This document shows, one piece after another, positions 4,846 through 12,638 of a stretch of DNA of 64,000 nucleotides (positions within the stretch are counted from its first letter, which is position 1; each line of letters starts with the position of its first letter). The notes under the pieces were generated by a model that saw only the letters and a list, made by a program, of their open reading frames with translations, was not told where the DNA came from and ran no database searches. The stretch covers positions 97,296-161,295 of the forward strand of contig NZ_VDMB01000005.1 of assembly GCF_006175995.1 (NCBI RefSeq), given 5' to 3'. The translations under genes and the position numbers were made by a program. The stretch is from Desulfobotulus mexicanus (GTDB lineage Bacteria > Desulfobacterota > Desulfobacteria > Desulfobacterales > ASO4-4).

Positions 4846-5469
4846 ATGCAGCAGGACAGGAAAATACGGACGGCTTTTGTGGGAGATTCCATTCTGTACG
4901 GCTGGGCCGTGGCACCGGAGGCTGCCTGTTGGCAGGTTTTTCAGGCCCTCACCGGTTTTGATGTGGTATCGGAAGGAGGTTTTAATCCCATGGCCCTGCC
5001 CGGCGGCACTCTGCCGGATCTGGTTACCCGGACACCCCGGCTTGTGGAACGCTACCGGCCGGATCTGGTTTTTGTCTGTGCCGGAGCCAATCATTATGAT
5101 GGTGACGGAACCCTGAGCTGGCCCTATGGCATGGGAGAAAAAGAGCTTTTTGTTCTTTATAAAAGACTGTTTTCTGACCTTAAGGGGGCAGGTGTCCGGG
5201 TTGTCTGGCTGGGTCTTCCGCCCTTTGAGGCCTGCGGTGCGGATCAGAAAATTCCCCTGGATCTTTCCGAAAAGATCGCATCCTTTTGTTCCCATGTGGC
5301 AGGGGACACCCGCTATTTCATTGAGGACATGCTGAAAGATCCCTCGTGGAACGCCAGAGGTGGCCGTTTTTATGACAATCTGGCACTGGATGTTCATCCC
5401 AACAGTGCAGGACAGGTATGTATAGCCCAGAGCTGTGTCGCATGGGTTCGGGAGGCAGGGATCTTATAA
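4846..5469 (+). CDS. SGNH/GDSL-family hydrolase
   Basis: 207 residues from ATG 4846 (GGGAG 5 nt upstream). Block I is FVGDSILYGW with the nucleophile Ser15, block III is CAGANHYDGDG with the oxyanion Asn, and the C-terminal block V is DVHPNSAG with the catalytic Asp and His. These residues make a serine esterase or lipase of the SGNH fold likely active. No signal peptide is seen, so it is probably cytoplasmic. Substrate unknown. An in-frame ATG at 4795 lacks a ribosome binding site. The last 6 bp overlap the antitoxin gene on the other strand. Confidence 0.8.
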   Translation: MQQDRKIRTAFVGDSILYGWAVAPEAACWQVFQALTGFDVVSEGGFNPMALPGGTLPDLVTRTPRLVERYRPDLVFVCAGANHYDGDGTLSWPYGMGEKELFVLYKRLFSDLKGAGVRVVWLGLPPFEACGADQKIPLDLSEKIASFCSHVAGDTRYFIEDMLKDPSWNARGGRFYDNLALDVHPNSAGQVCIAQSCVAWVREAGIL

Positions 5470-5739
5470 GGAGTTTTTGCAGGTCACCATTTCCCAGTGA
5501 CCTTTATCTACCGAAGGAGCATCCAGCCAGTCTTGGTCCGATTCGAACATTTCTTTTGATGTAATGGCTTTATCAAAAGCCTCTTTCCAGCCTTCTCTGT
5601 TTTCCTTGACAGGCTTTATTAAGAGACCGTTGTCTGTGATTTTGAACTCCAGTTGCCTTTCTTCCAACCCTGCCTGCTCAATGAGCGCCTTTGGAATGCG
5701 GATACCTTGTGAATTCCCTATTTTTATTAAAGTTGCCAT
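5464..5739 (-). CDS. AbrB/MazE-type antitoxin (orphan)
   Basis: 91 residues. The first 45 (LIKIGNSQGIRIPKALIEQAGL...FKITDNGLLIKPV) form the swapped-hairpin DNA-binding domain typical of MazE/SpoVT-AbrB proteins. The acidic tail (KAITSKEMFESDQDWLDAP) is the usual toxin-binding arm. GGAGG stands 6 nt before ATG. A MazF-type toxin normally follows, but the GDSL gene meets the stop from the opposite strand, so the toxin is missing. Its promoter and first codons are duplicated at 8146-8461. It is probably an orphan antitoxin, or a regulator that binds the repeated sites upstream. Confidence 0.8.
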   Translation of the reverse strand: MATLIKIGNSQGIRIPKALIEQAGLEERQLEFKITDNGLLIKPVKENREGWKEAFDKAITSKEMFESDQDWLDAPSVDKGHWEMVTCKNSL

Positions 5740-6028
5740 TTCAGCCTCCAGATGCGGTTGATGTAATTACAATATGACTACAAAAGACCCCTTGCCAATT
5801 GTAATTGTCTGTTGATTCAGGCTCTCAGTCTTAAAAAAGGGGATTCTGGAACTTTCGTCTTTTGGCAGGTATCAGCCTTTTTATGCACAGGCCCAATCCT
5901 GAATCCGCAGCCCCCAGGGTTGCCTGGCTGTGTGAACTATACCTGGCGTGTGCTATGGAGATGTTTCTGTGTCGATGTAATCCAGAAATATCGACATCTC
6001 TGTTTGGCCGTGTCGATGATGTGAGCAG
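5710..6028. repeat. ~319-bp diverged direct repeat, copy 1 (antitoxin 5' end plus upstream)
   Basis: This stretch contains the first 10 codons of the MazE-like gene and about 290 bp upstream. It aligns along its whole length with 8146-8461, with roughly one difference in five by eye. Conserved blocks include AAAAAAGGGGATTCTGGAA, TTTTGGCAGGTATCAGC and GGTTGCCTGGCTGTGTGAAC. A plus-strand open frame in each copy is broken relative to the other by indels, so it is not coding. The pair brackets the ATPase/TOPRIM genes. Confidence 0.75.
5970..6018. promoter_or_regulatory. putative operator: three GTCGAT sites (copy 1)
   Basis: GTCGAT at 5971, its complement ATCGAC at 5990-5995 and GTCGAT at 6012 form an inverted plus direct array about 230 bp upstream of the antitoxin start. 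The same three-site array, with one base changed, survives in repeat copy 2 (8403-8451). Conservation suggests a protein-binding site, possibly for the antitoxin itself. Confidence 0.4.
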
Positions 6029-6043
6029 AAAATAGGTTTTGAG

Positions 6044-6802
6044 CTATCTTTCAACCCCCATGGTCTCAAAGCAGCGTTCAACATCGGAAGATATTTTTTT
6101 CAGAAACTTGCCAGGTCTGATGGAGACGCTATGCAGCAATGCTTTATCGTTGTAAGGAATTTTCTGGCCCTTGAGGTTCCGGATCAGCAAAGCCATCAGG
6201 GTTTTACCCCGAAGCAGGAAAAAGTATTTTTTCCAAAGAAGCGTCCTTAGTGCATGGGGCCAGGCTTCACCCTCCGTCAGACGAAGCCGTTCTTCTTTCT
6301 TTTCATGGCTGCAATCAAGGATAGCGTTTACATGGTCAGAGATGGAAAGCGTCTGATCGGAAAGGTGGCGGGATAAGGCAAGGGCGTACCAGTCAAGGAT
6401 TTCTGCAAGTTCATGGCAGAACCGCTCTTTTTTCCCCAAGAGTTTCCAGAGGCGGCCATCCACATACACATCATTTTCAATGGAATAGCCGTGGGTGAAT
6501 ATCAGGCAGTTTTGGGAATATTCCCGCGGGATGCCCGTATGCACCCAAGTGTCTCTGTCTGCGACAAAGGCAAGCTTCAGCGTGGCCGAAAGTTCGTTTC
6601 TGCGCCTGAAAAGCTCAAGCACATTGGGCCTCCCATGGGCGGGAAAAACCGATATTCCCATATGGGATAAACGGTTTTCGATTTCTCTGTATACAATCAC
6701 ATCGTCTCCCCCTTCAACAATGAGGGTGGGAAGTGAGGAGTGCCGGAGCGTTGCCATGATTTCATCCACAGATGCGGGATAGGGACTTCCTGCAATGCGC
6801 AT
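6044..6802 (-). CDS. DUF4435/TOPRIM protein, PARIS AriB-like effector candidate
   Basis: 252 residues from ATG 6802. The TOPRIM core is visible: LIVEGGDDVIVYREI with Glu30, then KLAFVADRDTW with Asp82 and Asp84, the acidic metal-binding set of TOPRIM nucleases. A helical C-terminal half follows, with no recognisable extra domain. DUF4435 paired with an upstream ABC-type ATPase is the layout of the PARIS anti-phage system, in which AriB is the toxic nuclease held by AriA. The start lies one base after the ATPase stop (TAA-C-ATG), so translation is coupled. Longer in-frame starts inside the ATPase gene are less likely. PARIS identity is inferred; a generic OLD-like pair is the alternative. Confidence 0.75.
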   Translation of the reverse strand: MRIAGSPYPASVDEIMATLRHSSLPTLIVEGGDDVIVYREIENRLSHMGISVFPAHGRPNVLELFRRRNELSATLKLAFVADRDTWVHTGIPREYSQNCLIFTHGYSIENDVYVDGRLWKLLGKKERFCHELAEILDWYALALSRHLSDQTLSISDHVNAILDCSHEKKEERLRLTEGEAWPHALRTLLWKKYFFLLRGKTLMALLIRNLKGQKIPYNDKALLHSVSIRPGKFLKKISSDVERCFETMGVER

Positions 6803-6803
6803 G

Positions 6804-7985
6804 TTACTGGTCTCCTTCATTGCCATGATCCATGCCCAGCAGCGTTTCCTTGTCCGGGTACTTGGCGTAGATGAAGGGAGAATGGGTTGCAACGATGAAC
6901 TGATTGGAAGACTGCTGTTTTACGAGAATGGAAAAAAGCTGGCGCTGCCAGTCCACATGCAGGCTCAGTTCAGGCTCATCAATGAGGATAACGGCATTTT
7001 GAAAAAAGGAATTATAGGCGATAAAGCTGAAAAGCTGTTTTTCTCCGGCAGAAAGAAACTCCGAATGGATGGCCTTTGCCGCCTCACCGATGGTGAGTGT
7101 GCTGTCTAATCTGATGCCGCTGTGCTGCATGATGCTGGAAACAATTTCTTTGATAACATTAAAGGGTTGCATGATTTTTTCTGTGAATGTTTCCAGTTCT
7201 TCCATTTCTTTTTTGGCGGCTTCAAGCAGCTTCATTTCAACCGGCGATATGGATGGTTCTTCTGCCAGGGGATTGCTGCTATTCTTTTTTTTACGCTTCT
7301 GTGTTTTGTGGAATTCTTTTTTAAACTCGACCATATAGTTTTCAAGGTCTTTGATGGCTTTTTTAAAATTGTCTGAATATCCCATCTTAAGGGAATTGAG
7401 CTCCTCGGAACGGGAGGCATACTCCTTGATCAGTAACTTTTCGATGTCATGGGTGCCTATGGATAAAACCAGAGAATGCTTATCGTTGGACAGTCGTCTG
7501 GAAAAAGCAGACAGGGATTTGCCGATATCGTCCGTCAGGTGCTCTTTGGAACCGGGTCTGTGTCTGCCAATGGAAAAGCCCCCTTCAATTCTTCTGAATG
7601 TGGGAAGAAACAGGGAAGATCCTATATTGAAAAGGGCTGTATCTGCCTGATCTTTTTCAGAAAGGAGATATCTTTCACCATCATGCAAGAACTCGGAGAG
7701 ATAGCGGGCGCCGCTGCCATGGTGAAGCACTTCGACCCTGCCGGTGGGACGTTTCCGGTCTAAGGTGCATGTATATTCAGAGGTTTTCAGTTCTGCTCTT
7801 TTAAAGGGAATTTCGTTCATGGCAAGTGAAAGATTGCCGCTCAGGACATACCATAAAAGCTTGAGAAGGGTGGTTTTTCCAGAGCCGTTTCTTCCTGTGA
7901 AGATATTGATATCCTCGTTAAAATTTATACGGATGGCTTTGTCCTGTCCAAGAAAACCCTCCAATACAAGACTCTGAATCTTCAT
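6804..7985 (-). CDS. AAA/ABC-type ATPase, PARIS AriA-like candidate
   Basis: 393 residues from ATG 7985 (GGAGG 5 nt upstream). Walker A is GRNGSGKTTLLK at 31-42. The centre (about 195-285) is a long Lys/Glu-rich helical or coiled-coil arm. An ABC signature-like LSAGEKQLFSF precedes Walker B VILIDEPELSLH (about 332-343) and the switch histidine in VATHSPF. This is the SMC/OLD-like ATPase seen in defence systems (AAA_15/AAA_21). With the coupled DUF4435 gene it matches PARIS AriA, which senses phage anti-restriction proteins and releases AriB. No integrase or restriction genes adjoin it. It sits between two diverged direct repeats. Confidence 0.78.
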   Translation of the reverse strand: MKIQSLVLEGFLGQDKAIRINFNEDINIFTGRNGSGKTTLLKLLWYVLSGNLSLAMNEIPFKRAELKTSEYTCTLDRKRPTGRVEVLHHGSGARYLSEFLHDGERYLLSEKDQADTALFNIGSSLFLPTFRRIEGGFSIGRHRPGSKEHLTDDIGKSLSAFSRRLSNDKHSLVLSIGTHDIEKLLIKEYASRSEELNSLKMGYSDNFKKAIKDLENYMVEFKKEFHKTQKRKKKNSSNPLAEEPSISPVEMKLLEAAKKEMEELETFTEKIMQPFNVIKEIVSSIMQHSGIRLDSTLTIGEAAKAIHSEFLSAGEKQLFSFIAYNSFFQNAVILIDEPELSLHVDWQRQLFSILVKQQSSNQFIVATHSPFIYAKYPDKETLLGMDHGNEGDQ

Positions 7986-8086
7986 TGTTCCTCCAGATAA
8001 AATCAACCCGGCCGAAACGGTCAGGATATTTCAATCTTTCAAGCTTTTTTATACTTTCCCTGCCCGCTGGACCAGCATATGCAAAC

Positions 8087-8130: not shown

Positions 8131-8175
8131 TCACCATTTTTCCATTGAATTCCCGATTCTGATTAAAGTTGCCAT
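8131..8175 (-). pseudogene. truncated MazE-like antitoxin start
   Basis: The sequence encodes MATLIRIGNS, nearly identical to the first 10 residues of the antitoxin at 5464-5739, with the same GGAGG ribosome binding site. After codon 10 the homology stops, and the frame ends four residues later (MEKW-stop). It is the residue of a duplication or recombination whose breakpoint lies at the GAATTC common to both copies. Confidence 0.75.
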
Positions 8176-8461
8176 TTCAGCCTCCAGATGCTGTTGACAT
8201 AATTGCAATGTGACCACAAGAAGATCTCCTGTCAATTCTAATTGTCAGCTGATTCGGGCCTTAATTTTAAAAAAGGGGATTCTGGAATTTTAGATTTTTG
8301 GCAGGTATCAGCTTTTTTATATACAGATCCAATTCTGAATCCGCAGCCTCCCAAGGTTGCCTGGCTGTGTGAACGAAGCCTGTCGTGTGCTATGGTGTTA
8401 TGTGTCGATAGAATCCAAAAATTTCGACACCCCTGTTTGACCATGTCGATGGTGTAAACAG
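8146..8461. repeat. ~316-bp diverged direct repeat, copy 2
   Basis: Partner of 5710-6028 in the same orientation, beginning at the shared TGAATTCCC and ending after the third GTCGAT-type site. Small indels shift all reading frames between copies. It lies upstream of the ATPase gene and probably contributes its promoter region. Confidence 0.75.
8403..8451. promoter_or_regulatory. putative operator: three GTCGAT sites (copy 2)
   Basis: GTCGAT at 8404, TTCGAC at 8423 and GTCGAT at 8445 keep the spacing of the array at 5970-6018 within two bases. If the orphan antitoxin binds these sites, it could control the ATPase/DUF4435 operon from here. Confidence 0.38.
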
Positions 8462-8805: not shown

Positions 8806-9224
8806 GCTGGCAGATATTCTTAGTGATTTTAGAAAAACATCATGTGTTGAGGGTTTGAGAAGCACAGATTTTCACATACTCCCCCTACACCTCCAAAAAG
8901 CGGAGGAACAGGAGTTACAAAAGCAAGGAAGCATGGAACCGAGGATGGCCTGGCCTGAAATGAGAAGATATGTGTTAAGAGCAAGGGTTTCCTGCTGATT
9001 TTTGCAGCCATGGTTTTGTGCCCCCCTCCCCCCCCCAAAAAAAAATAAAGAAAAAAGAATTGATCTGACGGAAACTGTCGCAGGTCTGGTGTATGCTTCT
9101 TTTTAAGAAAAAATGCCTGAGTTTTCATCCTTGGCATTTTTGGTGCTTTTGTTTACAAGGAAGAATCATCACACCTGCATAAAGGCGGTCTTGCGCTGTC
9201 CATGTGCACATTGAGGGGAATTTC
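8806..9224. other. intergenic region with direct repeat and homopolymer tract
   Basis: No gene is seen. It holds the 42-bp repeat (8854-8895), a CCTCC...GGAGG hairpin next to it (about 8890-8906), and a C-run followed by an A-run (9021-9045) where length errors in the assembly are possible. The promoter of the WYL regulator should lie near 9120-9200 but is not obvious. Confidence 0.4.
8854..8895. repeat. 42-bp direct repeat, left copy (att-like)
   Basis: TTTGAGAAGC followed by ACAGATTTTCACATACTCCC and CCTACACCTCCA matches 12597-12638 at 39 of 42 positions in the same orientation. The right copy overlaps the 3' end of purF. The two copies bracket the WYL, zinc-finger, DUF1643 and lipoprotein genes. 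Confidence 0.75.
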
Positions 9225-10226
9225 ATGGGTAATACCTACCGCCAGTGCCTTATTCTGCAGATGCTTCCAAGGGAGCCACTATGTACAGACACGGCAAGCC
9301 TTGAACGCAGACTTCGGGAAAAAGGGATTGAGGTTCATCGAAGAACCATTCAGAGGGATCTGGAAGAGCTTTCGCGGGTTTTTCCAATCGCCTGCAATGA
9401 CAACGAAAAGCCCTACGGCTGGTTCTGGAGCATAAATGCAGAGGCCATCCATTTGCCCCAGATGAATCCGATCACAGCCTTTTCTTTTCGCATGATAGAG
9501 GCTTTTCTCCATTCGGTTATGCCTCCTGCGGCCCTGAAGACTCTGGAGCCCCATTTCAGTGAAGCTTCCAATATTCTGGATGCTGTCCGGGCCGAATCCT
9601 TCCGTTCCTGGCCGGACAAGGTGAAAATATTAAGCCGCACCCAGCCCCTGAAACCGCCCCACATTGATGCCGCCATTCTGAATACGGTCTATGAAGGCCT
9701 TATGGATGGAAAACGCATTCAGGCCAGCTATAGAAAACGGGGCGAAGAAGCCTCCACAGATTACACCATCAACCCTCTGGGTATCGTGCTGCTGGATTCG
9801 GTGATTTACCTTGTCTGTACCATGCGGGACTACCAGCGCATGGAGGACGTGCGCCAGCTTGCCCTGCACCGCTTTCTTTCTGCAACCCTTCTGGAGAAGC
9901 CGGGTCTTGTTCCCGAAGGTTTTTCCATGCAGGGCTACATTGACAGCGGAGCCTTCACCTATCTTCAGGGAAACCAGCCCATGGCCCTTGAATTTCTGAT
10001 GGAAAAATCCGTGGCAACCCATCTCTTTGAAACCCCCCTTTCCGAAGATCAGCGCATCACGCCCCATGATGAATTGAGGGTGAAGGTTGAAGCCACGGTG
10101 CTGGATACGGCCCAGATTCGCTGGTGGCTGCTGGGTTTTGGTGAGTTTGTTCAGGTGATGAAGCCGGAAAAGCTGAGGGAGGCGTTTGGCAGCAGGGTTA
10201 AAAAAATGCACTCCATGTATGCCTGA
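9225..10226 (+). CDS. helix-turn-helix / WYL-domain transcriptional regulator
   Basis: 333 residues from ATG 9225 (GAGGGG about 7 nt upstream; ATG 9204 has no site). The N-terminal winged helix (RQCLILQMLP...LERRLREKGIEVHRRTIQRDLEEL) is DeoR-like. The centre carries a WYL domain (IQASYRKRGEEASTDYTINPLGIVLLDSVIYLVCTM), where the usual WYL triplet reads VIYLV. The C-terminal WCX-type extension is VATVLDTAQIRWWLLGFGEFVQV-like. WYL regulators bind ligands, often nucleotides or nucleic acid, and control phage-defence and stress loci (BrxR, CapW). It stands first in the repeat-bracketed block. Base composition is like the core genome. Confidence 0.85.
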   Translation: MGNTYRQCLILQMLPREPLCTDTASLERRLREKGIEVHRRTIQRDLEELSRVFPIACNDNEKPYGWFWSINAEAIHLPQMNPITAFSFRMIEAFLHSVMPPAALKTLEPHFSEASNILDAVRAESFRSWPDKVKILSRTQPLKPPHIDAAILNTVYEGLMDGKRIQASYRKRGEEASTDYTINPLGIVLLDSVIYLVCTMRDYQRMEDVRQLALHRFLSATLLEKPGLVPEGFSMQGYIDSGAFTYLQGNQPMALEFLMEKSVATHLFETPLSEDQRITPHDELRVKVEATVLDTAQIRWWLLGFGEFVQVMKPEKLREAFGSRVKKMHSMYA

Positions 10227-10308
10227 AAGCTATGGGCTTTAAAAGACATGAAGCCTTATGAAATGGACATGACAGAATAACAACCATCAAAAAAAGGGAG
10301 GACTCAGA

Positions 10309-10641
10309 ATGACCATTAAGCATCTTGGAGAGGTCTGCCCCAATTGTAAAAAGGATTTTGACCTCCTGTCTCTGCCCGTTACCTGTGCCATGTGCCATGG
10401 AATAATGCACAGAACCTGCACCAAAGATTCTTTCATACTTGAACGCCTGGACAAACTGAATTTCAATAAAGACCGAATTTGCTATACCTGTTTGGAAAAA
10501 TTTAAGGCAGAAATTAAAAAAGATGAAAAATTACAGAATATTATTACGGCCTATGAAAAAGGATACTCAAGCGGGTACGATGCTGGATTTGTTGCCGGAA
10601 GAAATACAAGGCCGCCGTTTCTAAAAGGTATCAAGCAGTAA
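10309..10641 (+). CDS. small C4HC3 (PHD/RING-like) zinc-finger protein
   Basis: 110 residues, with GGGAGGA before ATG 10309. Eight ligands are spaced as a cross-brace zinc finger: C10-x2-C13-x12-C26-x2-C29-x4-H34-x2-C37-x20-C58-x2-C61. This is the C4HC3 order of PHD fingers and would bind two zinc ions. The Trp usual two residues before the seventh ligand is replaced by Arg56. After a charged helix comes the short GYSSGYDAGFVAGR segment, a Gly/Tyr-rich repeat of unknown role. Such fingers are rare in bacteria. Function unknown; a protein- or nucleic-acid-binding adaptor is plausible. The flanks are the WYL regulator and the DUF1643 gene. Confidence 0.7.
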   Translation: MTIKHLGEVCPNCKKDFDLLSLPVTCAMCHGIMHRTCTKDSFILERLDKLNFNKDRICYTCLEKFKAEIKKDEKLQNIITAYEKGYSSGYDAGFVAGRNTRPPFLKGIKQ

Positions 10642-11674: not shown

Positions 11675-12457
11675 ATGAAAAATATTACTTTTAATAAGAA
11701 TGCTTTTGTCTTAGCTATCGTTACTCTTTTTTTTGTTGTTGGATGCAGCCATAATGCTCCCAAAGAATACCACTCAGATCTTTATGAAAACATACAATAC
11801 CACCATTATTTTCCACAATCATTTTTCGGTAGCGGTCAAAATAATCAAGACAGTGTAGCATTGAAAAAAATAGATCATTTTAATAGAGGTGGTTACAATC
11901 ACGCAATTTTTAAAGATTTAAATGAGTGGGCAAAGCTTAGTAATAAAGGAGCACCTCTTAATGAACATAATGCTTTTACAAAAAGAAAAGCTGCCATTTT
12001 TTTAGGTAGAGGTGTAATTTCATATCAGTTTGCTAATTTTAATTATACTGAAAAAAAGGAAAAATGTTATAGCTTTTTTTGTGTCCCGGGCAAGCCTTAT
12101 GTCAAGCCAGAGTTTTTAATTGCTATGAAATTTGATGCTGTATCTAATGTTTTATATAATGTTTCATATATATTTTCCGTTCCTGCAAAAATTATTCATT
12201 CAACAAGAGTGGCTGAAGGACCCATTGAATGGATGAAAACTATTGTATTACTGCTTTTTTCTGGTTTTATTGCTTTTTTTATGATATTTATTGGAGCAAT
12301 AATAGGTTTTATATGTCATCCTTTTCAATCATTAGCTAATCTTTTAATTAGCTTAGATGGAGGTTATCAAACCCACTTGCTTTATTCTCTTTTAGATTTA
12401 TTTTGGAATGCAATTTTATTATCTCTTTGGGATATCATATATCTTTTTTTTAAATAA
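11675..12457 (+). CDS. AT-rich lipoprotein with C-terminal membrane segments
   Basis: 260 residues; AAGGAGG precedes ATG. The N-terminus is a lipoprotein signal (MKNITFNKNAFVLAIVTLFFVVGC) with the lipobox Cys at about 24. A soluble region (25-180) has no domain I know; RGVISYQFANFNY and CYSFFCVPGKPYVKPEF stand out. Two strongly hydrophobic segments follow (about 188-212 and 240-258). A protein both lipidated and multi-spanning is unusual. The gene is much richer in A+T than its neighbours, with many AAT, TTT and AAA codons, which points to recent acquisition. Function unknown. Confidence 0.65.
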   Translation: MKNITFNKNAFVLAIVTLFFVVGCSHNAPKEYHSDLYENIQYHHYFPQSFFGSGQNNQDSVALKKIDHFNRGGYNHAIFKDLNEWAKLSNKGAPLNEHNAFTKRKAAIFLGRGVISYQFANFNYTEKKEKCYSFFCVPGKPYVKPEFLIAMKFDAVSNVLYNVSYIFSVPAKIIHSTRVAEGPIEWMKTIVLLLFSGFIAFFMIFIGAIIGFICHPFQSLANLLISLDGGYQTHLLYSLLDLFWNAILLSLWDIIYLFFK

Positions 12458-12596: not shown

Positions 12597-12638
12597 TTTG
12601 AAAAGAACAGATTTTCACATACTCCCCCTACCCCTCCA
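12597..12638. repeat. 42-bp direct repeat, right copy, overlapping purF 3' end
   Basis: Partner of 8854-8895 (39 of 42 identical). Its last 11 bp are the final codons and stop of purF on the minus strand. A repeat that includes the 3' end of a conserved gene is the usual look of an integration site restored after insertion, but no integrase is present. Confidence 0.75.

Follow-up and report, generated by a model that had tools for sequence, protein, structure and literature searches.

FYVE and PHD zinc fingers are hallmarks of membrane traffic and chromatin in eukaryotes, and folds of this type mostly bind peptides or lipids. The fingers of Rab effectors further indicate that a FYVE fold lacking the PI3P-binding signature can bind protein. 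In bacteria, about 40 proteins with FYVE domains have been reported, all of unknown function, and phosphoinositides are called rare (PMC9324892), so that a bacterial FYVE-like finger is unusual yet precedented. Small prokaryotic zinc-finger proteins can also matter under particular conditions (PMC6562870). Bacterial FYVE/PHD versions are few, and a compact stand-alone one carried on a mobile segment would be easily expressed and tested. Here we describe such a candidate in a 64,000-nt stretch of the Desulfobotulus mexicanus genome (contig NZ_VDMB01000005.1; the whole stretch is called the window below), together with the segment that carries it.

Zinc ligands and profile comparison

The finger gene (Table 1) encodes a protein of 110 aa, whose translation is MTIKHLGEVCPNCKKDFDLLSLPVTCAMCHGIMHRTCTKDSFILERLDKLNFNKDRICYTCLEKFKAEIKKDEKLQNIITAYEKGYSSGYDAGFVAGRNTRPPFLKGIKQ. 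Its ribosome-binding site is strong, the frame is intact and the ligand set complete, and the ORF is a genuine accessory gene. The eight ligands in the translation are C10, C13, C26, C29, H34, C37, C58 and C61, with the spacing C-x2-C-x12-C-x2-C-x4-H-x2-C-x20-C-x2-C; order and spacing agree exactly with the C4HC3 pattern given in the preliminary description, which was also right that the PHD Trp is missing, as the protein contains no Trp whatsoever. A loose, general regular expression for cross-brace fingers matched just 5 of 1,000,000 residue shuffles of the protein, and because matches are so rare the ligand pattern cannot be ascribed to chance. When the open frames of the window were searched with the cross-brace expression, 0.03 matches per window were obtained after shuffling versus 2 in the real sequence, namely the finger ORF and a ferredoxin-type Cys run. 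The core is followed, within the last 30 residues, by a ladder of glycines (G85-x3-G89-x3-G93-x3-G97) with an aromatic residue directly after each of the first three, and this GxxxG helix is possibly an element of helix packing or dimer formation.

Table 1. Positions of the finger gene, its parts and surrounding features in the window
Feature	Position	Strand	Basis or remark
AbrB/MazE-like antitoxin ORF	5464..5739	-	
Direct repeat of ~300 bp, first copy	5710..6028		
AAA ATPase and DUF4435/TOPRIM-like gene pair	6044..8006	-	
Direct repeat of ~300 bp, second copy	8146..8461		
Left 42-bp direct repeat of insertion	8854..8895	+	comparison with sister species G002
WYL/WCX transcriptional regulator	9225..10226	+	Pfam; 82 nt upstream of finger gene
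Shine-Dalgarno-like GGGAGGA of finger ORF	10296..10302	+	upstream sequence; 6-nt spacer to ATG
FYVE/PHD-type zinc-finger protein ORF	10309..10641	+	110 aa, pI 9.0, 12.6 kDa
Predicted eight-ligand zinc-binding core, C10 to C61, C4HC3 order	10336..10491	+	sequence and model
Predicted C-terminal helix of finger protein, residues 73-99	10525..10605	+	H73-99 in low-confidence single-sequence model
Divergent DUF1643 protein with phage relatives	10757..11311	+	Pfam
Predicted lipoprotein/membrane protein	11675..12457	+	AT-rich (GC 29%); no Pfam family
Right 42-bp direct repeat of insertion	12597..12638	+	93% identical to left

Among 24,736 Pfam models, FYVE (PF01363) is the best match of the finger protein, with 25.3 bits and an E-value of 1.7e-5 over residues 8-65 (25.8 bits in the genome scan), which does not reach the gathering cut-off of 27.8 bits. 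As a control, ten sequences were made in which the eight ligands stayed fixed and the remaining domain residues were shuffled; their top FYVE score was 11.7 bits and the top score of any Pfam model 19.7. Since the ligand-fixed shuffles lose the score, the FYVE match reflects more than the ligand spacing alone. The sole PHD model in the Pfam list, PHD_4, scored 9.0 bits against a cut-off of 30.6, and PF00628 (PHD) gave no row in the scan of all models. Prok-RING_1 (PF14446) scored 14.7 bits (cut-off 29.1) and covered residues 7-39, i.e. the first half only, while Rad50 hook and DZR gave weak matches. With phmmer against PDB sequences, the FYVE domain of Vps27 (E 0.065) and a PHD finger of MLL (E 0.1) ranked first, neither of them significant, and no family in PADLOC, NCBIfam or PHROG fits the protein.

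Regarding the signature residues, the PI3P-binding motifs W-x-x-D and (R/K)(R/K)HHCR are both absent, and at the third ligand the protein reads LPVTCAMC, with VTC where the FYVE signature has HHC. At the seventh ligand R56-I57-C58 corresponds to the RVC-type motif of FYVE, the change of V to I being conservative; R56 itself occupies the position, two before this ligand, of the PHD Trp, and the C4HC3 ligands stand in PHD order. As the PI3P signatures and the PHD Trp are both missing, we assign the protein to neither family and regard it as FYVE/PHD-type, nearer to FYVE than to PHD. Its earlier label of PHD-like is thus supported for a cross-brace finger of FYVE/PHD type, and not for PHD specifically.

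Search for relatives and predicted fold

The idea that the finger might represent a separate prokaryotic family was not borne out, as none of the searches returned a homologue. This applies to the viral and genome contig collections, where the scans depend on short exact stretches of peptide and so pick up only close relatives, to tblastn against phages and plasmids, to both other genomes of the genus, and to 395 genomes of the phylum, 194 of the order and 389 of the class, these sets being partly overlapping. A FYVE profile run on 297 phylum genomes yielded one above-cut-off match elsewhere (L098) plus many weak ones, and none of the eight weak matches inspected resembles the finger protein. 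The weak matches of the first searches were rejected, none of them combining an open frame with the ligand pattern, and so were those inspected later, which fell in frames that were unrelated or broken by stops. When the viral and genome collections were scanned for the exact ligand spacing, most of what came back was Cys-repeat or antisense-looking frames, likewise set aside.

One plausible protein did come from the exact scans, an 89-aa phage ORF (L022:9005-9274, minus strand) with exactly the same eight-ligand spacing, whose best Pfam match is the C1 domain (22.4 bits, E 1.1e-4); scans with relaxed spacing added a phage ORF of L174 (10615-10902, minus strand) and an 80-aa segment of L137. 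The L022 and L174 ORFs resemble the finger protein in having the same or a similar ligand spacing, one small domain and a C-terminal extension. Their identity to it is 22-28%, mostly at the ligands, with pairwise E-values of 4e-4 and 0.003, and homology cannot be shown. Neither a profile of these two ORFs and the finger protein nor a pattern including HRTC recovered any relatives.

For the finger protein alone AlphaFold2 gave a pLDDT of 39. An alignment of four sequences, i.e. the finger protein and three spacing-matched segments from viral contigs (L174, L022 and L137), raised the pLDDT to 70.2 with a pTM of 0.58, and this model consists of short strands (E23-25, E32-34, E38-40 and E56-58) and then a long helix running from the last ligand pair on (H59-71). 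The best 25 rows of a Foldseek comparison with the PDB were all FYVE, Rab-effector FYVE-like or PHD structures (probability 0.72-0.99), the lowest E-value being 0.023 and PHD6 of MLL3 ranking first by E-value. In VIA-align 2, a Z of 5 or more was reached by 13 chains, every one of them a FYVE or FYVE-like Rab-effector finger, including 2zet_C (Z 6.7, rmsd 3.3, 63 aligned) and 1vfy (Z 6.1, rmsd 3.7, 64 aligned), and PHD chains came below them at Z 3-4; values of 5-6.7 are middling for this model, in a range reachable by common arrangements, and rows less than 1 apart are tied. The top matches among predicted viral structures were giant-virus proteins annotated as phosphoinositide 3-kinases, with E-values no better than 0.014. 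All of the PDB comparisons rest on one model, and this model is to be taken as support rather than proof, because its alignment was picked by ligand spacing and the alignment of the cysteines was partly imposed.

Taken with these limits, we consider a cross-brace of FYVE/PHD type fairly likely; it would hold two zinc ions, the predicted pairs being C10/C13 with H34/C37 and C26/C29 with C58/C61. The cross-brace reading of the preliminary description, as opposed to two zinc ribbons, is supported by the FYVE score of 25.3 bits, by the shuffle control and by the alignment of the model with FYVE, Rab-effector and PHD chains.

Inserted segment and neighbouring genes

The finger gene is located on a 3.74-kb segment, apparently of recent insertion, beside purF, between the 42-bp direct repeats of Table 1. 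In the sister species the end of purF is joined to the upstream flank with one repeat copy, and the 3.74 kb are missing; the gene arrived, or was retained, on a mobile or recombined segment. No integrase or transposase was recognised among the ORFs of the segment. The GC content is 52% in the WYL gene, 40% in the finger gene, 38% in the DUF1643 gene and 29% in the lipoprotein gene, and as it differs from gene to gene a composite origin is possible.

The stretch from the WYL gene to the finger gene showed no terminator-like site, so their co-transcription is possible. Two paralogues of the WYL protein, 61% and 48% identical to it, are encoded in its own genome, 5 of 197 other genomes have relatives of it, and relatives of the DUF1643 protein are present in 76 phage records. 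Neither a finger nor a DUF1643 gene stands at any of the seven WYL loci elsewhere, and neither a finger nor a WYL gene at any of the five DUF1643 loci in the phylum. The WYL and DUF1643 homologues thus occur elsewhere without the finger, which leaves a conserved system of the three genes unsupported. The preliminary description had spoken of an apparent island and seen a hint of a conflict or regulatory system; the island is borne out as an insertion absent from the sister species, a recurring gene set is not.

At one WYL paralogue locus (L091:5806-9895, minus strand), the neighbours include the gene of a 1113-aa Hsp70-type-ATPase-like protein and a further ORF, so that several accessory regions of this genome may have a WYL regulator with them. 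Elsewhere in the window, the AAA ATPase and DUF4435/TOPRIM-like gene pair matches AriA (E 2.5e-29) and AriB (E 8e-7) of PARIS and is, as judged from sequence, probably a phage defence system of PARIS type. It is bracketed by the two direct repeats of about 300 bp, whose ungapped blocks are 81-89% identical, and one copy of the repeat is found at the corresponding site of the sister species. The repeat takes in the beginning of an AbrB-type antitoxin gene, the second copy of which (near 8175, minus strand) looks truncated.

Possible roles and comparison with known systems

Our preferred reading, offered tentatively as a whole, is that a small soluble accessory protein would fold around two zinc ions as a cross-brace treble clef of FYVE/PHD type, that the GxxxG-ladder helix after the core would probably give a dimer, and that the product may act as a zinc-stabilised protein-binding adaptor for some partner. 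The adaptor function is a guess that we hold with some reserve, and it is the leading one because the FYVE-like fingers of Rab effectors bind protein without the PI3P signature. Most likely the protein is not a reader of PI3P or of histones, since the residues serving those ligands are absent.

Another possibility is that the same fold binds nucleic acid, the protein being basic with its pI of 9.0, and has an auxiliary part in regulating either the segment or some invading element. The adjoining WYL regulator and the phage-related DUF1643 gene among the neighbours fit this; however, GC is 52% in the WYL gene versus 40% in the finger gene, the two do not recur together, and the FYVE/PHD-type folds which the model resembles are mainly binders of peptides or lipids. 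We regard this role as unlikely, though the first to be weighed against the adaptor.

Less likely still is a protein made of two simple zinc knuckles or ribbons, in which the FYVE score would come from cysteine spacing. Cys-rich sequences easily match zinc-finger profiles, there are weak matches to Prok-RING_1, Rad50 hook and DZR, and every score stays below its cut-off; but the FYVE score is lost in the shuffles that keep all eight ligands, and the model displays a treble-clef arrangement at moderate confidence.

A membrane-associated FYVE-like domain binding anionic lipid seems very improbable. FYVE is the best match in both sequence and structure, a predicted lipoprotein gene follows downstream on the same segment, and some 40 bacterial proteins carry FYVE domains of unknown function (PMC9324892); against this, W-x-x-D and R/K-R/K-H-H-C-R are absent, with VTC for HHC and no Trp, and phosphoinositides are rare in bacteria (PMC9324892). 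An equally slight chance is given to a functionless orphan gene, either young or in decay, which would suit the failure to find any homologue, the absence of the gene from the two remaining genomes of the genus and its location in an AT-rich insertion, but not the intact frame, the strong Shine-Dalgarno sequence and the full ligand set.

Beyond the single protein, one might imagine a bacterial branch of the FYVE/PHD superfamily on mobile segments, serving phages or their hosts as peptide-binding adaptors and diverging too fast for sequence searches. We consider this quite improbable; if true, it would bear on the origin of the eukaryotic FYVE and PHD fingers, and the evolutionary weight of the present finger is limited because it is a single orphan.

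Returning to the preferred reading of a protein-binding adaptor, the finger can be set beside several described groups. The one-domain zinc-finger micro-proteins of haloarchaea (PMC6562870) are likewise small, single-domain and prokaryotic and have accessory, condition-dependent roles; unlike the finger protein they are archaeal and shorter than 70 aa, and the likeness is by description only. Prok-RING_1 corresponds in its first half and not in its second. The PHD finger (PF00628 and relatives) shares the C4HC3 order, and MLL3 PHD6 tops the Foldseek list by E-value, whereas the finger lacks the Trp before the seventh ligand and aligns with PHD chains at lower Z than with FYVE. The Rab-effector FYVE-like fingers (melanophilin, rabphilin, RIM and Slp4), which supply the top and several other rows of VIA-align 2, have a FYVE fold without the PI3P signature, as the finger protein may, and theirs serves protein binding; they differ in being eukaryotic and in their long Rab-binding flanking helices of other sequence, and no relation at the sequence level is shown. 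The FYVE domain itself (PF01363) departs from the finger in that the latter has His as its fifth ligand, lacks W-x-x-D and (R/K)(R/K)HHCR, and scores below the cut-off. What the two have in common is the set of eight ligands in cross-brace order across the whole domain, a helix, predicted in the finger, after the last ligand pair and a basic residue shortly before the seventh ligand (RIC in the finger, RVC in FYVE), and FYVE provides the best matches by both profile and structure.
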